A stretch of 64,000 nt of DNA, taken from the NCBI GenBank assembly GCA_030539115.1, contig JAUNSR010000015.1, positions 1 through 64,000 of the forward strand, read 5' to 3'. Shown here in pieces: positions 39,782 through 53,001 of the stretch. The stretch's first letter is position 1. Each line of letters opens with the position of its first letter. The translations under genes and the position numbers were made by a program. The notes below the pieces were generated by a model. The model was given only the letters and a program-made list of their open reading frames with translations. It was not told the origin of the DNA and ran no database searches. The stretch is from Bacteroidales bacterium (GTDB lineage Bacteria > Bacteroidota > Bacteroidia > Bacteroidales > JAUNSR01).

Positions 39782-40582
39782 ATGAAGAGACTTGTATTTC
39801 TTTTAATGGTTTTCACATCATTTATTGATGTAAACGCACAAACTATAAAATCATCAAACAATATGCTGGTAAGAATTTCAGAAATCGAGGTGTTCCCTCA
39901 ATATTTAAAAGAGTATCTTTCTTTTGCCTTGAATGTAGGAGCTGAATCTGTAAAAGAGGAGGCTGGAGTTATTGCAATTTATCCAATGGTTCAAAAAAGA
40001 GATAGTTGTCAGATTAGGATACTTGAGATTTATGCCAATGATGCCGCTTATAGAAGTCATATAAAAACTTCACATTTCCAAACATATAAGCAGGGCACTT
40101 TAAAGATGGTGAAAAACCTGGATTTGGTGGATATGTTCCCTTTGAATGAAGTTGACATGCCTAACCTGTTTAAAAAAATGGCTGAACCGATCTATCATCC
40201 GCATAAAACCGTATTCAAAACCGATGATAAGGCTTCAAATAAATATAATACGGGTGAAGTTTATGTCTCTGTATTAAAAGATAGCGGAGACACAATGATC
40301 ACTTCTTTTCTTTTCAATGAAAAAAGCAGAAATTTTTGGCATTATCATCCAGATGCAGAACAAACATTGATGGTTATTGAAGGTGAGGGATATTATCAGG
40401 AAGAGGGGAAGCCAAAACAAACAATTCGCAAGGGTGATGTTATAATTACTCCTGCCAATGTTCGCCATTGGAATGGAGCTTCTCCTGACAAACAACTTGA
40501 ATGTATTACTGTAACTGAACATTCTATTGAAAATCATGCCGTTCAGCTTAAAGAGGTGAGTGAGAAAGAGTATATGGATTAG
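39782..40582 (+). CDS. Exported ABM-domain plus cupin protein
   Basis: Signal peptide (KRLVFLLMVFTSFIDVNAQ), then an antibiotic-biosynthesis-monooxygenase-like dimeric alpha-beta barrel (VRISEIEVFPQYLKEYL, then EIYANDAAYRSHIKTSHFQT), then a cupin (NFWHYHPDAEQTLMVIEGEG, KGDVIITPANVRHWNGAS) with metal-site histidines. Fusion of ABM and cupin suits oxidation or isomerisation of a quinone-like substrate. It lies in an operon with the amidohydrolase and flavodoxin. Confidence 0.88.
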   Translation: MKRLVFLLMVFTSFIDVNAQTIKSSNNMLVRISEIEVFPQYLKEYLSFALNVGAESVKEEAGVIAIYPMVQKRDSCQIRILEIYANDAAYRSHIKTSHFQTYKQGTLKMVKNLDLVDMFPLNEVDMPNLFKKMAEPIYHPHKTVFKTDDKASNKYNTGEVYVSVLKDSGDTMITSFLFNEKSRNFWHYHPDAEQTLMVIEGEGYYQEEGKPKQTIRKGDVIITPANVRHWNGASPDKQLECITVTEHSIENHAVQLKEVSEKEYMD

Positions 40583-40639
40583 AATTTAATTCATGATAAA
40601 TTTTATAGAAAGTTTGTCCATGAAAATATGTAAAACATA

Positions 40640-41383
40640 ATGATTTATTTAATGAATATGAAACATATTAATTTGTCAATTATATTGACTTTATTGCTTG
40701 TAATTCCTTTTATCGCCTGCGCAAAAGATGATAATAATCTTGTTGATTTAGATGAATCAACAGATAATACAAGCAATGGGAAGTATCTTGTTGTCTATTT
40801 CTCATGTACTAACACGACAAAAGGAATTGCAGATAAAATAGCAAAAATATTGGAGGCTGATGAGTTTAGAATTGAGCCGGCAGACCCATATACTTCTGAT
40901 GATCTTAATTACAGTGACAATAATTGCCGTGCCAATAAAGAACAAAATGATGCAAATGTCCGTCCTGCAATTGTAAAGGGTGTTGATAATATAGGAGATT
41001 ATGACATTATCTATGTTGGCTTTCCTATTTGGTGGGGTAAGATGCCTAAAATAATGTTTACTTTCTTTGATACTTATGATTTAAGCGGAAAAACTATTAT
41101 TCCCTTTTGCACATCCGGAAGCAGTGGTATAAATACTGCAATTAATGAAATAAAATCTCTTGAGCCGAACGCTGAAATTGTAAATGGAAACCGCTTTTCG
41201 GGAGGAACCACTGAAAGCACTATAAAGTCTTGGATTGATAGAGTAACTACAGATATTGCAAAGGTTGAACAAGAAAATGAAAACTCTAAAATAGGCTATA
41301 ATATTAGAGGTCAGGTTATAGATAAAAAAACAACAAAAGAACTAATAATTATAAAGGGAAAGAAATATGTAAATGTAGATTGA
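40640..41383 (+). CDS. Lipoprotein flavodoxin
   Basis: The likely start is one of the ATGs at 40652 or 40658 (MKHINLS), giving a lipoprotein signal with Cys in VIPFIACAK. The body is a flavodoxin: phosphate loop YFSCTNTTKGIADKIAKILE, ring-binding FPIWWGKMPKIMFTFFD, and CTSGSSGI. A C-terminal tail (NIRGQVIDKKTTKELIIIKGKKYVNVD in part) resembles a leftover of another domain. A lipid-anchored flavodoxin in the periplasm would need a dedicated electron donor, possibly replacing a cytosolic partner of the lost aldo/keto reductase. Confidence 0.85.
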   Translation: MIYLMNMKHINLSIILTLLLVIPFIACAKDDNNLVDLDESTDNTSNGKYLVVYFSCTNTTKGIADKIAKILEADEFRIEPADPYTSDDLNYSDNNCRANKEQNDANVRPAIVKGVDNIGDYDIIYVGFPIWWGKMPKIMFTFFDTYDLSGKTIIPFCTSGSSGINTAINEIKSLEPNAEIVNGNRFSGGTTESTIKSWIDRVTTDIAKVEQENENSKIGYNIRGQVIDKKTTKELIIIKGKKYVNVD

Positions 41384-42539: not shown

Positions 42540-43604
42540 TTAATAACCAATTTTTGGAAACACATATTCATCAAAAGGAGCTTTAAAGTGAAGTTGAACA
42601 GATGATATAAAATCTCCAAATTTGCTCATGAGATTTTCTTTTTCTTTTGGGACTTCATATTTGCTAAGAAGAGAATAATTATTTGCATCAATTGCAAAAT
42701 ATTCAACTTTATCTAAAGATGAAAGTTTAACGGTCCAGTCCATCAAATTGGCATAAATCATCATAGATTGATTTTTTGGATTGAAGGGACCAATTTTTAT
42801 CTCTTCAAAATTGTATTTCGGAAATTCAATGGCATAAAATTTATTCTCTTTGTCGCAGGCAAAAGCCAGAGTCTTCTTATTTCTGAATTCAGTAATGAAA
42901 ATATGCTCTAATACCATTCCATTTGGAATATCAATTTTTCTAAGATATGGACGTCCTTTAATTTGCTTGAAATGGAAAAGCTGAGAATTAGAATCAAGAA
43001 TCACATATCCCTCATCATAATCTTTTTTTACTGACGGGTTGCCCGAAACCTCTTTTGAGGGGAAAACAAATCCCTTTTTAATAAACATATCAGTAAAGAG
43101 TTTACTTTTTTCTATGTTTACTGTGTTGGTTTGACATTCAATAAACTCGATATTGTTGTTTGTAATTCTAAATACGTCGTCAGGAGTTTCAAGTTTAACT
43201 CTTCCGGAAAGAGATTCCAAAAGCTGGTAAAGACCAATCTGTGGACGGTTTATATCCTTTGGATTGTGACGAAAGTAAAAACTTGCTGTTTGGACATCTT
43301 TATAATTTATGGCAATGCCTTTTATAGAATCAGGGAATTTTCCATCATTAACTAACTGCCGTGCATAAAAAAAAGGCATCAGAGAGTCAGCCTCATTTTG
43401 TGAATATAAATTTCCTTTCAGATCATAATGTTTCATTGTTTTCCCATCTGATTCAGAGAAAATAAATTCATTAATAATTGTGCTGTACATTGTGAAAGGA
43501 GAGTTTGAGGCTTGAGAATTAAGGAAGCTGTAACACCAAGGAAGCTGCCAAAATAGAAGTATGACAATCGTTGTTGCCAATAGTATTTTACTAAACTTTA
43601 TCAT
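42540..43604 (-). CDS. DUF4857 protein, ABC-system partner
   Basis: A 354-residue protein with one N-terminal membrane helix (ILLATTIVILLFWQLPWCYS) and a large periplasmic body with beta-propeller-like strands (YVILDSNSQLFHFKQIKGRP, LAFACDKENKFYAIEFPKYN). It matches DUF4857 in length, anchor and gene neighbours: these proteins are encoded with an ABC ATPase and ABC-2-type permease in Bacteroidota. Last gene of the leftward locus, 22 bases after the permease gene. Role unknown. Confidence 0.8.
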   Translation of the reverse strand: MIKFSKILLATTIVILLFWQLPWCYSFLNSQASNSPFTMYSTIINEFIFSESDGKTMKHYDLKGNLYSQNEADSLMPFFYARQLVNDGKFPDSIKGIAINYKDVQTASFYFRHNPKDINRPQIGLYQLLESLSGRVKLETPDDVFRITNNNIEFIECQTNTVNIEKSKLFTDMFIKKGFVFPSKEVSGNPSVKKDYDEGYVILDSNSQLFHFKQIKGRPYLRKIDIPNGMVLEHIFITEFRNKKTLAFACDKENKFYAIEFPKYNFEEIKIGPFNPKNQSMMIYANLMDWTVKLSSLDKVEYFAIDANNYSLLSKYEVPKEKENLMSKFGDFISSVQLHFKAPFDEYVFPKIGY

Positions 43605-43626
43605 ATCTAATCAAATTGTTTATTTA

Positions 43627-44298
43627 TCAGTCCTGTTTTCCCTCTTTGAAGCGGGAAACTGAAAGAAAAATAAATGTTGAGAATAAAAGAGTTGTTATTG
43701 CCATATAAGGAAGAAAACAATTATAACCTTCTCCAACACTGTCAATAAAAAAAATCTTTAAAACAAGCACTGCAATTAGAATATTTATAATTCTCCTTTT
43801 CCATGTTGGCTCAAGAGTTATCCATGCAGTAAAAATATAGGAGGCTATCCCGGCAAGAAACCAGGGAATAGAACTTAGAATAATATGTTTTACAAGCTCA
43901 GGAGCAAGAATTAAGGAAAAGGAGGCAGCAATCAATAATATAACAGCCGAAAATATGATTATCAGGGAAACAAAACCAAAAGAAATCATCACAGCAATCA
44001 TTGTCATGCTGTTGAATGGAAGATGGAGGGTGAGTTTAAGACATTTCTGGTGCATTTCAGGAACATACTGAGTGATACCAACAATTATTCCAATAATCAT
44101 AGGAAGAAAGGTTAGCAAAGAGATGAAAAGAGCATCTTTTTGAATCATTACTTCCCATATGTGAACAGCACCTTTCATCTCGATCATTCTAAAAATATTG
44201 ATGATGCAGAAAAGAGAAAACCCTGCAAGAACTAAGATAGACAGAATAAATGCCCAACGGGTCTTTATCCATTCTTTGTAATATATTGCTTTTATCAT
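43627..44298 (-). CDS. ABC-2-type transporter permease
   Basis: A 223-residue polytopic protein with about six hydrophobic segments (FILSILVLAGFSLFCIINIF, LLTFLPMIIGIIVGITQYVP, MIAVMISFGFVSLIIIFSAV and others) and the coupling-like phrase HQKCLKLTLHLPF after segment 2. Typical of small ABC-2 permeases that act as exporters or membrane-organising pumps. The gene follows the ATPase after 15 bases. Confidence 0.85.
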   Translation of the reverse strand: MIKAIYYKEWIKTRWAFILSILVLAGFSLFCIINIFRMIEMKGAVHIWEVMIQKDALFISLLTFLPMIIGIIVGITQYVPEMHQKCLKLTLHLPFNSMTMIAVMISFGFVSLIIIFSAVILLIAASFSLILAPELVKHIILSSIPWFLAGIASYIFTAWITLEPTWKRRIINILIAVLVLKIFFIDSVGEGYNCFLPYMAITTLLFSTFIFLSVSRFKEGKQD

Positions 44299-44313
44299 TG
44301 TATATATTTTATT

Positions 44314-45207
44314 TTAATATTTGCCGGTTAATCCAATAAAGGCGTCTTCAAGATTTAATTTGTTGAAAGATAGGTCGGAATAGGGAATCATCCTTTCATT
44401 AAAGTAATCTCTAACTGCATCCTCATTAAGAAAAGAATAGACTTCAAACTTGTTTTTTATCAAAGATGGATTGTAAAAGTTGTCATTACTGTCAAATTTA
44501 AAATTCTCAGGCACAATGCATTTAATTTGTCTGAAGTTGTCAAGAATCTTATTGACAGGTTGTTGAATCAATATCTTGCCATAATCCATTATAATGCAGT
44601 CATCTATCAATCTTTCCATATCCTGAATAATATGAGAGGTAAGAAAAATTGTTTTGTTGTCGTTATCTGCATATTCTCTCAGATAATCTACAAAGAGACG
44701 TCTGTATCCCGGGTCCAGACCCAAAGAAAAATCATCTAAAATGAGTAATTCAGGGTCTTGAGCAAGTATTAATCCCAAAGCAACCTGCGAACGCTGACCG
44801 CAAGACATCTTTGATATCTTTTGTTTGGGAGCAACTTTAAGCCTGCCCATTAAATCGTAATAAGCATCCTTTTTCCATTTTGGAAAAAAGGCAGAATAGA
44901 AACGTTCTATCTGCTGAATATTCATAAACTGGTATTGAACATGCCCCTCTATAAGAAGTCCGATATTTTGGCGAAGAGATGGGGCCATTGTTTGAATGTT
45001 TTCGCCAAAGATTAGGCATTCTCCCTCTTTTGGCTTTAAATAACCGCTTAGAATATTTATCGAAGTTGTCTTTCCTGTACCATTTTTACCAAGGAGGCCT
45101 AATATTCTTCCTTTAGGAACGGAGAAACTGAGATTTTCATAAATTTTACGCTTACCATAATAGTGGGTAAGGTTGTTACATTCTATAATATTTTCCATTT
45201 TGGACAA
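44314..45207 (-). CDS. ABC transporter ATP-binding protein
   Basis: A 297-residue ATPase: Walker A GLLGKNGTGKTTS, Q-loop area, signature MSCGQRSQVALG (C in place of the usual S in LSGGQ), Walker B LLILDDFSLGLD (the catalytic Glu replaced by Asp: D-D-F instead of D-E-P), H-loop LTSHII. The C-terminal 80 residues match the extension of exporter-type CcmA/DrrA-like ATPases. The atypical Walker B should slow hydrolysis. Partner of the permease and DUF4857. Confidence 0.9.
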   Translation of the reverse strand: MSKMENIIECNNLTHYYGKRKIYENLSFSVPKGRILGLLGKNGTGKTTSINILSGYLKPKEGECLIFGENIQTMAPSLRQNIGLLIEGHVQYQFMNIQQIERFYSAFFPKWKKDAYYDLMGRLKVAPKQKISKMSCGQRSQVALGLILAQDPELLILDDFSLGLDPGYRRLFVDYLREYADNDNKTIFLTSHIIQDMERLIDDCIIMDYGKILIQQPVNKILDNFRQIKCIVPENFKFDSNDNFYNPSLIKNKFEVYSFLNEDAVRDYFNERMIPYSDLSFNKLNLEDAFIGLTGKY

Positions 45208-45283
45208 AAGCTACGCTGAGAACCCTATAAAAAGGCTCTTTAAAATTGGTTTTAATAAGTATGTTTGTAGTGAAATTTTTCTA

Positions 45284-45865
45284 TCAACTCAGAAAAAGAA
45301 ATATTATTGGAAAGAGAATGCCTATTAGCAGTTCAATGCCACCTCTTCCAATAAATCCTTTTGAACCTTTCATCATAGTAAAACCTGTTATAATGATGAT
45401 TATTACCGCCAAACAGAAGATGTCTGAAAAATATGTCCACCATTTCCCCGGATTGTAGTGAAGAGTTGTCATTTCACTTAAGAATAATCTTTTATGAAGA
45501 AGCTCAAGAGTGGCTTTACCGCTTTTTTGATCAATTTCGAGAGATGAGCCACCCTTTAAGAAAACTTTAAGATGATTTGGCTCAGGATAATAGTGTTTTG
45601 TGTATAAGTTTTCTGAATTTTGTTTCTTAAGAATCTCAACTACCTCATTCTTTTGATATTTTCCATCATAGGGAGTAGTCTGAAACTCAATTCTTTCTAT
45701 CGTATAATGAGGATTAATTTTGTCTCGGTGATTCATAACAAAGCCTGAAACAGCATAAATAAGCAGAATGCCTGAGAAAATAAAGGATAAATCGCGATGA
45801 ATCAGTCTACTCCAACGTCTAAACTTATTTGCGGGAGTGTTACGTCTGTTTTGAATTTCTTCCAT
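45284..45865 (-). CDS. PepSY-associated membrane protein
   Basis: I start at the ATG complementary to 45863-45865 (MEEIQNRRNT); a longer frame to 45913 adds an unlikely hydrophobic prefix. It has a membrane helix after RRWSRLIHRDLSFIFSG, a central PepSY-like periplasmic domain (RIEFQTTPYDGKYQKNEVVE, LEIDQKSGKATLELLHKR), then LHYNPGKWWTYFSDIF and two more helices. The R-L-I-H-R-D pattern is that of PepSY_TM proteins often associated with iron or haem reduction, which fits a metal-handling locus. Confidence 0.8.
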   Translation of the reverse strand: MEEIQNRRNTPANKFRRWSRLIHRDLSFIFSGILLIYAVSGFVMNHRDKINPHYTIERIEFQTTPYDGKYQKNEVVEILKKQNSENLYTKHYYPEPNHLKVFLKGGSSLEIDQKSGKATLELLHKRLFLSEMTTLHYNPGKWWTYFSDIFCLAVIIIIITGFTMMKGSKGFIGRGGIELLIGILFPIIFLFLS

Positions 45866-45991
45866 TCTAAATAATAGAGATAAAAAATAAATATGATTGT
45901 CAAAGTGAAGCAATTAAAAGAAATATCTCTCAACAACATCAGTGATGATTTATTGAAAGCAATTGCTTCTGAAATAGTCCATTTAATCTCT

Positions 45992-46025
45992 CTCAACAAT
46001 ATCATTGATAATTGATATTGTTGAG
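45992..46025. repeat. Perfect 13-bp inverted repeat between locus genes
   Basis: CTCAACAATATCA (45992-46004) and TGATATTGTTGAG (46013-46025). A similar CTCTCAACAACATCA lies about 65 bases to the left. Possibly a terminator/attenuator or RNA-stability hairpin between the lipoprotein and PepSY genes. Confidence 0.6.
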
Positions 46026-46106
46026 GCGGATTAAAAAAGATAATCATTCATTAATGGAACACCCTAATGATAAATCTGGGTATGTATGAACTATATTGTT
46101 AAAGGC

Positions 46107-46694
46107 TTATTCATTAATTGAATATCCTTCAGCAACAACGTGATAGAAAGAAAGATAATTCTTTCCTGACTTTTCATTTCTTTCGGCAATCCTTTTACGA
46201 AACTCAGCAATACGGGCAGAAGGCGAATTTGCTGTTTCACCTCTGGCTTTTTTCTCAGTACTGCAACCCGCTTCACTATCACCATGGTTTTCCTGAGCTT
46301 GAAGAGCGAGCTTAGCTTCCCAATTTTGAAGATATTTCTCATCAATTTTTTCCTCGACAAGTTTGCCTTTAACAGTTACAATACTGTTTACACATTTTTG
46401 ATCAAAGCTTCCTAATTCTCCCGATTCGATTCTTATGGTTTTAGTATCATCACTGCCCATTAGAAAAATCTTTTTTGCGCTGTGTTGGCAAATATGTGTA
46501 CATACACCTTCCAGTTCAACCGATTGTCCAATCAGATTTTCAGCATTGTTAAGCAAATCGTCAACCGGCATGACAGAAGATTTTTGTTCAGCAGCCGGTT
46601 GTGCAGACTTGTCATCGGATTTACTTTTGCCGCAAGACACAAAAAGAATAGACAAAATAGCAAACGCAGTAAAAAGGGAAACTGAATTTTTCAT
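46107..46694 (-). CDS. OB-fold-like lipoprotein (DUF4920-like)
   Basis: Start chosen at the ATG complementary to 46692-46694 (MKNSVSL); an upstream ATG at 46724 adds ten residues. Lipobox LFVSCGKS. Residues about 50-140 read as an OB fold: LIGQSVELEGVCTHICQHSA, KIFLMGSDDTKTIRIESG, VTVKGKLVEEKI. The C-x-x-x-C-x-H arrangement in GVCTHICQH could bind a metal or haem. A helical C-terminal tail ends in FYHVVAEGYSI. It is 60-90 bases downstream of the DUF6850 gene. Confidence 0.75.
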   Translation of the reverse strand: MKNSVSLFTAFAILSILFVSCGKSKSDDKSAQPAAEQKSSVMPVDDLLNNAENLIGQSVELEGVCTHICQHSAKKIFLMGSDDTKTIRIESGELGSFDQKCVNSIVTVKGKLVEEKIDEKYLQNWEAKLALQAQENHGDSEAGCSTEKKARGETANSPSARIAEFRKRIAERNEKSGKNYLSFYHVVAEGYSINE

Positions 46695-46783
46695 AAGAGA
46701 ATGTTTTTTTATATTATTATTCATAATTTGTTTTATTAATAAGTCGTTCTGTTTTTATATTATAAACAATTAGCCGTCGATTG

Positions 46784-48394
46784 TCAAAATGTTACACCTG
46801 TTGATATGGAAACAAAATGACTTTGGGCATTAAAAAAATTGTTTTTTATAGTTTTATTATATTGATAAGAAGCAGATAAAAAACAATTTAAATTTTTTAT
46901 CGGTACTCCCCATCTAATTTTAAAAATAGGCGACAAAGTCGGTGATGTCAGATAATAATATTCCTCTAAAAGAAAACTATCCACAGATATCGGTTTACCA
47001 GAGGAAGATGAAGGGGTGGAAAAAAGTTTATCATTATATTTTTCACCGAATCCATCTTTAAAACCTAAATCCGCTTTTAAAGAGAAAATAGATCTTTTAA
47101 GATGAATATGTTTTGTATAAGCTAAATTAAAAGTGTATAGACTAAGATTTTGCTCTCTATAATAAGGATAAATTATTGAGCTGACTTTTCTTTTTGTAAA
47201 AGAAGAATTAATCTCAAAAGCCCAATCATACAATCCGTTAATCCTCTTCCTTTCAAGAATATAATCGCCTGAAATTAGTAATTTAGATTTATTTCCGACC
47301 TCATTTCGGGCATAATATTCATAAATAGTATTTCCTGAGGAATTTGTCTCACTGCGATAGGAGTTTTCAAAATTGTTTATCTCAAATTTTCTTATTTCCA
47401 GCTCCACTTTATGATCATATTTTGTGGATTTAAGATAGGCAAAGAATCTCTCCTTAAAATCTTTTCCATTATGATTTGTATGTAGAATAGATGACGAGGA
47501 TTGTTTGCCAAAATATCCGTCAAATTTGTTGAAAGATATTTCATTAAATAAATAAAGACTCGAGTTTACTTTGAAATCCAATTGAAAAGCCACCCCATTT
47601 TTGTTGTTAACGTAAGGATTGTTTTCACCTTTTGCAGTAAAGCCATATTGATCAAAAAGTTCATTTTTGCCATAAAAAACTCCATAATTGATTAATGAAT
47701 AGTATAGCTTGTCTGTTGTACCGTAGGTATTGAAAACAATGCCTTCTATATAACGAGAGTAATTATAATTCAAACCAATTGTCAAATACTTATTTAATTT
47801 ATAGCTTCCCCCTAAAGATAAATTCATGTCAAGAATTTTATTCGTATGACGTAAATCTTTTGTCTTGACATAACTTTTAGCTTTATAATCAAGGAAAGCA
47901 CCAAGCGAAAACTTATTATTTATATCATATCCTAAACCACCTTTAATTGTATAAACTTCAAGCTTTGTGCTGCCAACATTTTCATAATCAGTGTTGACAA
48001 TATCAAATGCCATTTCTTCCGGATTAAGAAACGATGATCCATTCTGATTTTTCTCAACTCTGTTTTCATAACCTGCATATCCATAAAGAACGCTCTTGCT
48101 ATTAAGCCTCTTAAAAGTTTCATTATAAACCGAAAACTTAAATGCGTTTTCAGATTCATAATAATTTTTCAGCTTGCCATTTTCTTTTTCCAAAATGATT
48201 TTAGCTATGCCTGCATAATCGGTTGAAACATTATTTAGATAAGCCCAATTATTGCTCTTTTGCCAGCCAATAGAATCATAAGCAAAATCAAAATCATGTT
48301 TAACAGAAAAATATGTCTGTGCATTGCCATTAAAGGCAACACACAAACAAAAAACAACTAAAAAACTAACTCTATTTATGAGATTAATTATCAT
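46784..48394 (-). CDS. DUF6850-type outer-membrane beta-barrel protein
   Basis: A signal peptide (VSFLVVFCLCVAFNGNAQ) precedes a 510-residue beta-rich protein with alternating amphipathic strands and a terminal aromatic-ended strand (SHFVSISTGVTF). Gene order directly after a TonB receptor and a DUF4876 lipoprotein matches that of DUF6850 barrels. No plug domain. Probably an accessory porin or channel for the same ligand. Confidence 0.8.
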   Translation of the reverse strand: MIINLINRVSFLVVFCLCVAFNGNAQTYFSVKHDFDFAYDSIGWQKSNNWAYLNNVSTDYAGIAKIILEKENGKLKNYYESENAFKFSVYNETFKRLNSKSVLYGYAGYENRVEKNQNGSSFLNPEEMAFDIVNTDYENVGSTKLEVYTIKGGLGYDINNKFSLGAFLDYKAKSYVKTKDLRHTNKILDMNLSLGGSYKLNKYLTIGLNYNYSRYIEGIVFNTYGTTDKLYYSLINYGVFYGKNELFDQYGFTAKGENNPYVNNKNGVAFQLDFKVNSSLYLFNEISFNKFDGYFGKQSSSSILHTNHNGKDFKERFFAYLKSTKYDHKVELEIRKFEINNFENSYRSETNSSGNTIYEYYARNEVGNKSKLLISGDYILERKRINGLYDWAFEINSSFTKRKVSSIIYPYYREQNLSLYTFNLAYTKHIHLKRSIFSLKADLGFKDGFGEKYNDKLFSTPSSSSGKPISVDSFLLEEYYYLTSPTLSPIFKIRWGVPIKNLNCFLSASYQYNKTIKNNFFNAQSHFVSISTGVTF

Positions 48395-48461
48395 TTTGAA
48401 GATTACTTTATGGAAATGATAAATTTTAATTGCACAGGCAATAAAAATTTTTGAAAAAAGA

Positions 48462-49778
48462 TTATTTCAAAGATGCTTTTGCCCTTTGATGAAAATCATT
48501 GCTTGAATTATTTGTATCAGAATAAATGATTCTTGCTCCATTTTTTATGGAAGCTTCTGCATCTATACCGCTTGGATCTGTAGAACCGTCCAAGTTTTCT
48601 GTCCCTAAATTATAGTTGTAAACAATCTTGCCTGAGTTTTCTTGTAAAGCTTCAGTGGCATCTTTGTCAACATTCCTGTAAAGAGTATATCCGTAGCCGG
48701 CAGTTAAATCCACTGCGCCGGCATCTACAGAAGATGTAAATCTTTTAGAATTGTTGGAGGCTCCTTTTTTAAATACCTCAACTCCGTCAACAATCCAATC
48801 AACGGGAACTTTCTTTCTTACCTGAGTTGCAGAGCCATTATAAAGTGAAATGTTGTTTGCATCGGCATTAAAAGCCTCAGGGCTACTGTTTTCAGGATAA
48901 AAAATAAACAAAGCCGGAGAAGTGTTGCTAAAAGCCCACGCATTACCGGTGCCATATTTAAAACCAGGAAGATAATTTGAAACAGGTATATTCGAAGATG
49001 GAGAAGGGTGGTATGAAGTGTTTGTGTAAACCTCGGGAGAATAAGTAACATAATACTCAGACCGGCTTAGGTCAACAGAATTTGAATATGTCAAAGTATT
49101 GTCGTTGGCATTATTAAGCACAACAACTGCCTGTTCGCCGGGTTTTAGCTCCTTATCATTGCTAAAATAAAAATACCCAAGACCTGCCGGAATCCAACCC
49201 TCATTTTCATAAAAAAGAGTTCCATTTTGAACATCGGCATTCGTAACTGTCGAATTATATGGTATTGTCATTGCAATACACATATCCTTTAATTGCGCAT
49301 TTTCATCAGAATTGTTATATAGAATAATGTATTTGTCGTAATGGAAACTGCCAGAGCCATCATCCTTTTGACAACCGCCGTTATAAATCTCCTTAATAAC
49401 GATCTGACTTAACTTGCTCTCGACAAGATTTAATGATATTAAATCTGATGAGGTTTCGTTGATAACAACATTGCTTTTAGAGCCGGTAAAAGTTATCAAT
49501 CTGCCGGAATGAACATTCTTGTGGGTTGCTGTAATCTCATAAACTCCGGAAGGAAGGTTAAATTTAGCTTTACTTTCTTCGTCTGTTTTACTTTCATACT
49601 TCACTCCCGAAGACGATGAGGCAAGAATAGAAATATCATTTTTTGATTCTATTGAAGATTCAGTTGGATATACCAATTCAACGTACACATCAATAGTTTT
49701 GTAAGTTAATTTCTCATCTTCAGTGCATGCCGAAGCAATTAGGAGAAAAGCGAATAAGAAATAATAGATTCTTTTCAT
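48462..49778 (-). CDS. DUF4876 lipoprotein
   Basis: Lipoprotein signal (YYFLFAFLLIASACTEDEK). The N-terminal third is a carboxypeptidase-regulatory/transthyretin-like domain (IDVYVELVYPTES, FNLPSGVYEITATHKN). The rest is a lamin-tail-like beta-sandwich (IVIKEIYNGGCQKDDGSGSF, KYIILYNNSDENAQLKDMCI, PGEQAVVVLNNANDN). This architecture is DUF4876. It is likely surface-exposed and partners the TonB receptor like a substrate-binding lid. Confidence 0.87.
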   Translation of the reverse strand: MKRIYYFLFAFLLIASACTEDEKLTYKTIDVYVELVYPTESSIESKNDISILASSSSGVKYESKTDEESKAKFNLPSGVYEITATHKNVHSGRLITFTGSKSNVVINETSSDLISLNLVESKLSQIVIKEIYNGGCQKDDGSGSFHYDKYIILYNNSDENAQLKDMCIAMTIPYNSTVTNADVQNGTLFYENEGWIPAGLGYFYFSNDKELKPGEQAVVVLNNANDNTLTYSNSVDLSRSEYYVTYSPEVYTNTSYHPSPSSNIPVSNYLPGFKYGTGNAWAFSNTSPALFIFYPENSSPEAFNADANNISLYNGSATQVRKKVPVDWIVDGVEVFKKGASNNSKRFTSSVDAGAVDLTAGYGYTLYRNVDKDATEALQENSGKIVYNYNLGTENLDGSTDPSGIDAEASIKNGARIIYSDTNNSSNDFHQRAKASLK

Positions 49779-49878
49779 GTTTTATATTTTATGTTTAAAC
49801 TATTTTTTTAATGATTGTTTAATATCAGTGAACTATTGGTTCATAAGCATTTTATGTTTGCGATTATATTTTTAATTT

Positions 49879-52830
49879 TTACAATTTTATTTTTAGAGAT
49901 ATGCCATAAGAAAATTCAGGAATCCGAGAACTATCATACAAAGTATTTTCAGTATCATTCCATGTGCTTTTTACCCTACTTAAATTGTTAAGGAAATTGT
50001 TTGCATAGAATGATAAAGAAAAGTTTTTGCCCAATTCTTTTGATAAATTAAGATTTGCAGAAAAATATGGCGAAAGTTTATTTGCTTTAAAATAATATGC
50101 CGTATTTGATTTGGAAATTAGCTTTGTCAATTCATTATACAGTGTTATATCATTGCTTTTTGCCCAAAGAAATTTCTCTTCAAAAGGAATCTTTGTTGTC
50201 ATATCATCAGTACTAACGTAATAAGAGGGATAGACAGCAACATATTTCTCGGAATTATAAATATTATAGTCAGTCCCTGTGTAATCGTCCCTTGAATCCA
50301 AAACAACTCCACGGGTTCCGGACCCATTATCAGAAAGATATTGAGTGGAATTGTAAAGTGTTGATTCAATTCTTAGAGAAGCTACCATTTTAACTTTTGG
50401 AATATGAGTGGATATAGTTGCATTTACATTGATTTTCTTAGTCTCACTTCCATTTGAAACGCCGGTTCCACCAACATAAAAACCGACATATTTATATGGC
50501 TGGCCATTAGCCATAGTCTGAGCCGTTGAAGGCACAGAAGAAACAACAGTTTTGTTTATTCCCTTATAATGATAAAAGTTGCCATCAATACGAAATGATG
50601 TATATAAAGATTTTATTTTGCCAAAATCTGCCATCCACTCAATTCCCTCTCTTAAAGTCGGAGAGTTGTTTTCGGCATATATTTCACTCCTAAAGGTTGT
50701 CCTTTCAACATAGGGCAGTTCAACAGAATGATAAGTCCCTGTTTTGTCTGAAACTGTAACTATTCCGCTGTTCTTGTCAACACTGTAAACTCTGTTTTCA
50801 TTAGATATAAATATTCCATCAAGTGATTTTTGATCAGTAAACTTATAAGCAAAAGGAGAATAAGAATTGGCATTCATATAGCCGTTGTATCCTTTATTCC
50901 TATATGCCGTTAAAGAGAAATTAATGCTTCCAATTTTAGAATCTATGCCAATTTCTAATTGCCTTGTTGACTGCCATTTTAGATTTGCGTTAATCAAATT
51001 GTTAGAAGGCATTACGTAATAAGCATAATAAGATGTTCCATTTCCAAGAGCTCCGGGAGCAAATGTCAACTGCTGTTTGTAAGATGGCTGAGGATAAAGA
51101 ATTGCAAATGACGGCAGTTTTACAGCATCACCAATTCCCCCTCTAATTATTAAAGACTTAAATGTTTTATTCTTTGGATTATTGAAAATATTGTATCTAA
51201 AATTAAATCTTGGTGACCAAGCTCCCACGGTTCCATATCCTGATTCGCTTACATTAGTAATATCTTTTCTTATTCCTGCCGTAATCTTTATGTCGCCTAT
51301 ATAAAGAGGAGCAGAAAAATTATATTCACCATAAAAAGCAAGATTATTCATTGACGGAATCTCATCATATCTATATTCCCTCCAAGTTGGAGTATAGAAA
51401 ATATCATCATAATAAACCCCGCGTCCTTTATTGGATGATGAAGTAAAGCTTGCGCCAAAAAGAAATTTGTTGTTTATTTTCCCAAGATTTATGTTATGGT
51501 TTAATTTTATATCAGTCTTTGACTCAACAGGTCGGTCATCCCTGTGTTGAAGCTCATACCAATATCCGGCAGGTATTAAGGCAATGTCGGCACTGACATT
51601 CTCTTTAATATCTTCAGCAACAAAATATCCCTCATTCTTGCCATGAAAAACAGGAGTTGAAACAGAACTTGATTTATTGGTGTTAATATCCTCCTTTTTA
51701 TCAGAATAGCTTAAAGAACTCTTAACTTCAATGCTTGTTATATAAGGTTTTTGCAAGAGCCAGTTTGCAGAAAATGACCCTCTGACAGTGTTGTCTTTTA
51801 TTTTTGTATAAGTATCAGAAAAAGTATCAGGGTCAGCCTTTGAATCATAGCCTCCTACATTGCCGCTTAAAGTGGCTGAAAGATTAAGTGGAATGGAAGA
51901 GCTTTTTCCAAAAGTGTTGCTGTAAATAGCTGTAAATGCATTTCTTATATATGTAGTGTGTGGCGAAGCTATATTTGATGTAGAGGAGGTTCTCTCAAAG
52001 CTTAAATTAACAATGCCTCTATCTGAAAGTAAATCAATGCCTTTACCTATGGATATATTCTTTGTTTTTGGACTTGCCCCCAAGGAAATTTGCAAAGGTG
52101 AACGACCTTTTTGAGTTTTGATTTTAACTATTCCGCTTGCTACATCACCATATTCAACAGATGGAATTCCGGTTATAACCTCAACCGACTCAATATTGTT
52201 TGTTGCAATATTTCTTGAATCAACACCTGCCGTCTCAGTAAAAGATGAGTTGTTTGACAATCTTATCCCATCAATTTCGACAGCTGTCATAAATGAAGGA
52301 TTGCCCATCTCGCCGTTTGAAGAACGAATCTCAAATTTTTTTGATGAACTGTTGGTAAGGTCGCTGTTTATCGCTGTCTTTCCTCCCGGAAGAAGTGTTG
52401 AAAGATCTGTAACACTCGACATTTGATGATGATCAAGTGCTGTTTTGTCAATTATATAAGATGAAGCGGCATTGTTCCTGTTCTCCTGAGCGGTAATTAC
52501 AATCTCTTTAAGAGTTAGATTTTGCGGAGAAAGTCTAAAATTTAAATTACAAGTGTCTTTATCGATACTTATTTTTACCTCCTCTTTGGCATAGCCAAGA
52601 CAGGAAACGTTCAGTATATAATCACCTTTGGGAACATTGCTGAATTTATAGATTCCATCATTGTCAGATATTGCCCAGAGCTGAATCTCATTAATAATTA
52701 AAGAAACACCATCAATCGGTGCTCCCGTCTCCTTATCGCTTATTTTCCCAACAATGTTGAAGCTTTTTGCCAATAAAGAAACGTTAGCACAAATTGAAAT
52801 TGCCAAAAAAAATATAATTCTAACTCTCAT
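49879..52830 (-). CDS. TonB-dependent receptor
   Basis: A 983-residue outer-membrane receptor. Signal peptide; carboxypeptidase-regulatory-like domain (about 24-112, GKISDKETGAPIDGVSLIIN and LNVSCLGYAKEEVKI); plug (about 120-250, including LSTLLPGGKTAINSDL and VEVITGIPSVEYGDVASGIV); and a 22-strand-type barrel ending FSYGISLKIKL. It imports a large ligand with TonB energy. It is the first gene of the eight-gene locus. A Bacteroidota -7 box lies upstream. Confidence 0.95.
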   Translation of the reverse strand: MRVRIIFFLAISICANVSLLAKSFNIVGKISDKETGAPIDGVSLIINEIQLWAISDNDGIYKFSNVPKGDYILNVSCLGYAKEEVKISIDKDTCNLNFRLSPQNLTLKEIVITAQENRNNAASSYIIDKTALDHHQMSSVTDLSTLLPGGKTAINSDLTNSSSKKFEIRSSNGEMGNPSFMTAVEIDGIRLSNNSSFTETAGVDSRNIATNNIESVEVITGIPSVEYGDVASGIVKIKTQKGRSPLQISLGASPKTKNISIGKGIDLLSDRGIVNLSFERTSSTSNIASPHTTYIRNAFTAIYSNTFGKSSSIPLNLSATLSGNVGGYDSKADPDTFSDTYTKIKDNTVRGSFSANWLLQKPYITSIEVKSSLSYSDKKEDINTNKSSSVSTPVFHGKNEGYFVAEDIKENVSADIALIPAGYWYELQHRDDRPVESKTDIKLNHNINLGKINNKFLFGASFTSSSNKGRGVYYDDIFYTPTWREYRYDEIPSMNNLAFYGEYNFSAPLYIGDIKITAGIRKDITNVSESGYGTVGAWSPRFNFRYNIFNNPKNKTFKSLIIRGGIGDAVKLPSFAILYPQPSYKQQLTFAPGALGNGTSYYAYYVMPSNNLINANLKWQSTRQLEIGIDSKIGSINFSLTAYRNKGYNGYMNANSYSPFAYKFTDQKSLDGIFISNENRVYSVDKNSGIVTVSDKTGTYHSVELPYVERTTFRSEIYAENNSPTLREGIEWMADFGKIKSLYTSFRIDGNFYHYKGINKTVVSSVPSTAQTMANGQPYKYVGFYVGGTGVSNGSETKKINVNATISTHIPKVKMVASLRIESTLYNSTQYLSDNGSGTRGVVLDSRDDYTGTDYNIYNSEKYVAVYPSYYVSTDDMTTKIPFEEKFLWAKSNDITLYNELTKLISKSNTAYYFKANKLSPYFSANLNLSKELGKNFSLSFYANNFLNNLSRVKSTWNDTENTLYDSSRIPEFSYGISLKIKL

Positions 52831-52900
52831 CTAAATATCCTGCTAAAAAGTGATTTAAAAAGAAATTTTAAATACATTCTTTTTATCTCTTTTGCCGATA

Positions 52901-52908
52901 CAAAGATA
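52901..52908 (-). promoter_or_regulatory. Promoter -7 box of the TonB-receptor locus
   Basis: Minus strand TATCTTTG, an exact TAnnTTTG match, about 70 bases before the receptor ATG. The -33 region is T-rich but has no perfect TTTG at 19-21 bases. Confidence 0.6.
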
Positions 52909-52940
52909 TTTCCGCTAAAAATCAAAAACTATCCCTAAAA

Positions 52941-53001
52941 AAAGGGAAAATCAGCATCTCTCTAACCATTTTTGGTGAGTAAGAATGCTGATTTCCCCTT
53001 T
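52941..53001 (-). terminator. Terminator after the YeaQ-type gene
   Basis: Minus strand: AAAGGGGAAATCAGCAT, 27-base loop, ATGCTGATTTTCCC, then TTTTTTT. It separates the small stress gene from the receptor locus. Confidence 0.8.

Follow-up and report, generated by a model that had tools for sequence, protein, structure and literature searches.

An eight-gene operon of a Bacteroidales bacterium very probably encodes an iron-scavenging machine made of an exchangeable surface receptor and a conserved inner-membrane unit

The system described here is already known, without a mechanism, from expression data on a syntenic locus of Bacteroides thetaiotaomicron: BT3625-BT3633, which was given the label of a putative fimbrillin locus and no mechanism, is up-regulated 37-128-fold when iron is low and 14-19-fold in mice with colitis (PMC10434189). 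Likewise, PG1019-PG1022 of Porphyromonas gingivalis, which comprises a DUF4876 gene and a receptor gene, is up-regulated 21-215-fold under iron depletion (PMC10434189), bearing in mind that chelator-based depletion could lower other metals too, and the DUF4876 gene responds to haemin (PMC10470040). We analyzed such a locus in a 64,000-nt stretch of DNA (positions 1 to 64,000 of contig JAUNSR010000015.1, hereafter the window) from a Bacteroidales bacterium. Its eight neighbouring genes very probably constitute one iron-scavenging machine, in which an exchangeable surface receptor is combined with a conserved inner-membrane unit. BT3625-BT3633 is the same kind of system: the order and the families are the same (DUF4857, permease, ABC ATPase, PepSY, DUF4876 and TonB receptor) and it is iron-regulated, the difference being an extra fimbrillin-like gene. 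The new elements are an operator shared with other genes, a two-module history, ABC motifs that hold family-wide and peptidases beside stand-alone receptor modules. The preliminary description of this DNA had missed the known iron-stimulon locus of B. thetaiotaomicron, the exchangeable character of the outer-membrane module and the presence in this genome of another receptor module, next to an M16 peptidase gene.

Other described systems share part of this make-up. XusABC (BT2063-BT2065) also combines a TonB receptor, a surface lipoprotein and a PepSY inner-membrane protein and is induced by iron limitation, but XusB is a DUF4374 protein, whereas the lipoprotein of the window is a DUF4876 protein with no DUF4374 match in Pfam, and Xus is devoid of the ABC unit, DUF4857, the DUF6850 barrel and the OB lipoprotein. 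The Fus/PqqL-YddB systems are iron-regulated and bring together a TonB receptor, an M16 protease and a gene for an inner-membrane transporter, a combination found here in paralogous and distant versions; the operon of the window has no M16 gene, however, and Fus has no DUF4876, DUF6850, PepSY or DUF4857. NosDFY-NosL-NosR resembles the locus in arrangement only, i.e. an exporter-class ATPase and a permease together with a probable third subunit in the periplasm and a lipoprotein that is likely to bind metal, with a NosR/NapH-like membrane ferredoxin in distant versions of the present locus. By contrast, the third subunit here belongs to a family of its own (DUF4857, E 1e-100) with no NosD-type match, the lipoprotein differs from NosL, N2O reductase is missing and the regulating metal is iron. 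Finally, ExsFGH of Bradyrhizobium offers a parallel in which iron is released reductively in the periplasm next to an exporter, but that exporter is an RND pump with an adaptor and an outer-membrane channel, not an ABC complex.

The preliminary description had read the eight ORFs as one leftward unit, and this holds: all lie on the minus strand, between 42540 and 52830, separated by short gaps, and their order recurs in dozens of Bacteroidales genomes. From the promoter onwards, they encode a TonB-dependent receptor (TBDR; 49879..52830, 983 aa) with CarboxypepD_reg-like, Plug and barrel domains; a DUF4876 lipoprotein (48462..49778, 438 aa, Pfam E 6e-23); a DUF6850 outer-membrane beta-barrel (46784..48394, 536 aa, 6e-39); a Cys/His OB-fold lipoprotein that we call CHLIP (46107..46724); a PepSY_TM_like_2 inner-membrane protein (45284..45865, 193 aa, 1e-13); an ABC ATPase of the exporter (DrrA/NosF/ABCA-like) class (44314..45198, ABC_tran, 2e-23); an ABC permease with about six TM helices predicted from hydropathy (43627..44298, 223 aa); and a DUF4857 protein (42540..43604, 1e-100). 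The permease and CHLIP of the window matched no Pfam family. Homologue length favours the ATG at 45865 as the likeliest start for PepSY and that at 45198 for the ATPase. Just past the 3' end of the operon, on the opposite strand, lie genes for a cupin/ABM-domain protein and a flavodoxin_4 lipoprotein (39782-41383); flavodoxins are iron-starvation genes in Bacteroidetes.

The eight genes form a real, conserved operon. A DUF4857 alignment led us to 80 loci from named genomes, most of which have the order receptor, DUF4876, DUF6850, CHLIP, PepSY, ATPase, permease and DUF4857, with an optional surface gene inserted before CHLIP. Among the 59 loci with at least 9 kb of sequence upstream of DUF4857, the ATPase was present in 58, the permease in 56, DUF4876 and DUF6850 in 55 each, the TBDR in 54 and the Cys/His lipoprotein in 52, and median spacers between neighbours were -14 to 32 nt. 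PepSY was found in 46/59; as several loci have none nearby, it is dispensable in some places. Chance does not explain the gene set, and the families named in the preliminary description do travel together: in 89 Bacteroidales genomes, DUF4876 occurs in 18 and DUF4857 in 13, and 12 genomes have both (Fisher p = 9e-10), with DUF4857 found without DUF4876 in a single genome and DUF4876 without DUF4857 in six.

The promoters of the operon in relatives share the pattern ACCTAn4TnGGTATTG, followed by N20 and TAnnTTTG, and the orthologous operons of B. fragilis, P. vulgatus and Parabacteroides carry this operator. The 20-nt spacing between operator and promoter box was observed in 26 of the 28 promoters with at most four mismatches, and sites with at most three mismatches numbered 37 in the fetched loci versus 0 in the reversed control, the sites of related genomes being non-independent. 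We scanned four Bacteroidales genomes for the operator and assigned the downstream genes by reading their translations. These include feoAB (L111), an HmuR-like receptor (L112), a hemerythrin (L123), a Fes-like esterase (L131) and ahpC (L135), as well as siderophore and FecA-like receptors (L125, L136 and, in the window's own genome, L110). An operator that also precedes feoAB, receptors for haem and siderophores and a hemerythrin gene assigns the operon to an iron-limitation regulon. The copy in the window is degenerate: the site (52929..52946, minus strand, CCCTTTTTTTAGGGATAG) has four mismatches to the family pattern and lies exactly 20 nt upstream of a Bacteroidetes-type -7 box (52901..52908, minus strand, TATCTTTG), an arrangement with P = 0.013 in shuffles of the upstream region of the window. 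In the same genome, the siderophore-type receptor at L110 has a good operator copy, and none was found upstream of the genome's own feoAB. Our search of the literature turned up no named Bacteroides Fur box and no regulator for this motif; the window genome contains two Fur-family genes. The operator was also seen upstream of enolase in B. fragilis and in a Parabacteroides (L133 and L124), which suggests that a glycolytic gene may be under iron control.

Given these data, the operon is, with high probability, an iron acquisition system. The hint at metal or haem in the preliminary description is thus borne out, the metal being iron as judged from the published regulation of the syntenic locus and from the shared operator. 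Both lines of evidence point to regulation by iron and not by glycans only. A glycan system was also considered and rejected, as Pfam searches revealed neither SusD nor glycan enzymes in the operon.

We then compared pairwise protein identities across 40 loci. TBDR, DUF4876 and DUF6850 correlated with each other at r 0.93-0.97 (outer-membrane module), and CHLIP, ATPase, permease and DUF4857 at r 0.90-0.94 (inner-membrane module), with which PepSY correlated at r 0.92-0.97 in a set of 32 loci, whereas correlations between the modules were only 0.4-0.7. Two loci from the window's own genus (L022 and L025) are a case in point: their inner-membrane modules are 77% identical and their receptor modules 20%, so the cassette has been exchanged. 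The identity patterns indicate that receptor cassettes are swapped on a constant inner-membrane core. In one Bacteroides locus (L041:4142-17532), two divergent receptor modules surround a single inner-membrane module.

Co-variation among neighbouring genes can partly mirror linkage. Partial correlations, computed over 28-40 loci, were 0.60 for TBDR-DUF4876, 0.63 for TBDR-DUF6850, 0.73 for CHLIP-PepSY, 0.45 for ATPase-permease and 0.50 for permease-DUF4857, all stable under subsampling, and near 0 across modules. Adjacency alone does not account for these values, because PepSY and the ATPase adjoin with a partial correlation of about 0, while the receptor and DUF6850 do not adjoin and yet reach 0.63; the adjoining DUF4876 and DUF6850 give 0.2. 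As pairs of loci are non-independent, such values suggest protein contacts and do not prove them. The contacts that the two-module structure predicts are receptor-DUF4876, receptor-DUF6850, PepSY-CHLIP and permease-DUF4857.

Within the receptor module, DUF4876 is a probable surface ligand-binding partner of the receptor: the lipobox Cys18 is invariant, and a solved structure, 4q1z, is matched by the family profile (E 8e-72). We asked whether 4q1z is the DUF4876 protein of B. fragilis; the two proved to be relatives only. As to the ligand, the cargo could be an iron- or haem-bearing protein or peptide that is imported whole and digested in the periplasm, in the manner of Fus/PqqL; this proposal, which is compatible with the mechanism that we favor below, is a serious candidate, if somewhat short of an even one. 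It draws on seven receptor modules with no ABC unit nearby (L026 and L157-L162), five of which are followed, on the same strand and in the same gene run, by peptidase genes. In the window's own genome (contig C59, L026:3517-11974), TBDR, DUF4876 and DUF6850 genes with no ABC/PepSY unit precede a 932-aa M16 peptidase by an 8 bp gap; L157 has M16 and S46 peptidases, and L158-L160 encode clan CD proteins that resemble gingipains and show His-Gly and Cys motifs. Moreover, distant ABC-linked versions (L016-L019) carry M16 together with a NapH/NosR-like membrane ferredoxin, and the pairing of a TBDR with M16 is a hallmark of Fus/PqqL systems (PMC6793856). However, the operon of the window and those of the Bacteroides type are free of peptidase genes, and M16 and S46 genes are common in Bacteroidota.

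The clan CD proteins deserve a separate mention. Encoded directly downstream of DUF6850 (L158:11401-15783, L159:5115-7307 and L160:5450-7636), they are about 730 aa long and combine a clan CD domain (HG and DAC-x-NG motifs) with HEAT repeats; as their matches to Pfam C25 are only weak, they possibly represent an undescribed peptidase family. A papain-like (C1) protein whose C-terminal part weakly matches HmuY is encoded beside the DUF4876 receptor module of L160 (3861-5435).

In the inner-membrane module, CHLIP is a likely metal-binding protein on the basis of residue conservation. The C-x-x-x-C-x-H string noted earlier is real (C75-x3-C79-x-H81), but the part conserved in the family is H77-x-C79-x-H81 plus the distal C154 and E157, C75 being replaced by V or S in several relatives. 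The AlphaFold model (pLDDT 84.9) is an OB fold (match to VIA with Z 12.5, 87 aligned residues, rmsd 2.2), a generic fold whose matches are mostly nucleic-acid binders and were not read as function. CHLIP may be related to DUF4920/tRNA_anti-like proteins: a DUF4920 match (6.8e-12) was obtained for two distant members, but no family match for the protein of the window, and the CHLIP profile gave only chance-level matches in the PDB.

The co-varying PepSY protein (PepSY_TM_like_2, E 1.2e-13; PepSY_TM, E 2.3e-7) is a probable haem-bearing ferric reductase. His23, His46 and His136 are conserved in 28-29 of 29 sequences, alongside three TM helices predicted from hydropathy. In a P. aeruginosa PepSY protein, two haems are held by conserved His residues, and XusC, also a PepSY protein, is described as the reductase of a TBDT/lipoprotein/PepSY system (PMC13142918). 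No sequence match to a solved PepSY reductase was obtained, and the PepSY profile had no usable match in the PDB. The FsrB-FeoAB route of Bradyrhizobium provides a precedent for reductive iron release in the periplasm (PMC10760861). Note that the CHLIP-PepSY spacer (45914-46106) is about 190 nt long in the window genome only, compared with 14-19 nt in relatives. It contains a 23-nt inverted repeat (45982..46035), single-copy in the genome, with a very stable predicted RNA structure (z -5.95), which is possibly an attenuator or an inserted element.

The ATPase has a normal Walker A motif, a Walker B of the form LDDFSxGLD, in which the catalytic Glu is replaced by Asp, and the signature MSCGQ. 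These motifs had been called degenerate; they do deviate, but they are not broken, for the Glu-to-Asp change is present in all 78 ATPases in which the motif was found and MSCGQ in 69 of the 78. Decay of the ATPase was accordingly rejected, the unusual motifs being kept across the family, and general knowledge of ABC ATPases suggests that the conserved Asp makes for a slow catalytic site. As to its probable partners, 29 permease homologues gave only chance-level Pfam matches, and neither the permease nor the DUF4857 profile had a usable match in the PDB. The AlphaFold model of DUF4857 (pLDDT 89.7) has an N-terminal TM helix followed by a periplasmic beta-rich domain, for which the best matches are beta-propellers with Z up to 8.8 and TM about 0.3, a weak and generic resemblance from which nothing beyond a propeller-like arrangement can be claimed; longer relatives have extra C-terminal TM helices.

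NosDFY and MacB are mechanical ABC devices. We tentatively propose a mechanical role on the periplasmic side for the present complex too, rather than that of a pump, because the operon contains no gene for an adaptor (membrane-fusion) protein or an outer-membrane, TolC-like channel, because the evolution of the ABC subunits tracks the redox/metal pair, and not the receptor, in the partial correlations, and because the conserved Asp suggests a slow site. The same data bear on the main alternative, a conventional exporter that, once the iron has been reduced, would expel the carrier now free of it (an apo-siderophore or what is left of a peptide), in the way that pyoverdine is recycled or ExsFGH exports xenosiderophores. 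Although the ATPase is of the exporter class and a periplasmic reductase beside an exporter has a precedent (PMC10760861), we hold this to be unlikely: besides the lack of a membrane-fusion protein and a TolC-like channel, the co-variation of the sole non-receptor barrel, DUF6850, is with the receptor rather than with the ABC subunits, and receptor cassettes that differ greatly share one constant ABC unit.

The operon might instead acquire copper (or zinc), like the proteobacterial copper systems with a TBDT and PepSY_TM or the NosA/NosL/NosDFY machinery. A Cys/His lipoprotein is present, PepSY_TM genes follow copper receptors in >75% of crtA loci (PMC12914433), NosF is among the many relatives of the ATPase (E 6e-20, the permease being without a match) and NosR/NapH-like ferredoxin genes occur in distant versions. 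We nevertheless consider this reading improbable, given an operator common to feoAB, haem and siderophore receptors and hemerythrin and a syntenic locus induced by low iron. A fimbrillin synthesis or transport locus, as the B. thetaiotaomicron label has it, is hardly credible: a fimbrillin-like gene does exist in BT3630 and close relatives, but the inserted gene is variable (Fib_succ_major or DUF6383 elsewhere) or absent, as in the window, while the other eight genes are constant.

The explanation towards which we lean is a two-module system for TonB-dependent iron acquisition, induced by iron limitation, with reductive release in the periplasm and the ABC-DUF4857 complex as a periplasmic device. 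The DUF4876 lipoprotein would capture an iron-bearing ligand on the cell surface and pass it to the receptor, to which the DUF6850 barrel would be an accessory, and TonB energy would move the ligand into the periplasm; the cassettes exchanged between strains probably take different iron sources. PepSY_TM, as a probable haem-containing electron conduit, and CHLIP would act as a redox/metal pair, reducing ferric iron, setting it free and keeping hold of it, after which ferrous iron would enter through FeoB, which is encoded elsewhere in the window genome. The ATPase, the permease and membrane-anchored DUF4857 would form a single ATP-driven complex on the periplasmic side, a mechanical device of the NosDFY/MacB kind and not an importer, that may drive iron handover or remove the spent carrier. 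The transport logic, which had been called unexplained, is now resolved in part: fresh evidence comes from the two-module structure and the redox/metal pair, and for the ligand and the job of ABC-DUF4857 we offer proposals. A bolder version, in which swappable TBDR-DUF4876-DUF6850 cassettes importing proteinaceous iron would dock on an engine made of ABC, DUF4857, PepSY and CHLIP with NosDFY-like mechanotransmission, and would define a new class of iron piracy, strikes us as quite doubtful.

The two-module structure is a testable design principle, in which receptor cassettes would swap on a fixed release engine. It also raises the pointed question of why iron uptake should call for an exporter-class ABC complex in which Asp replaces the catalytic Glu throughout the family. 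In the inflamed gut, Bacteroidales and pathogens are rivals for iron. Although this locus belongs to those that iron scarcity and colitis strongly induce in B. thetaiotaomicron, it has been assigned no function and filed as a fimbrillin locus.
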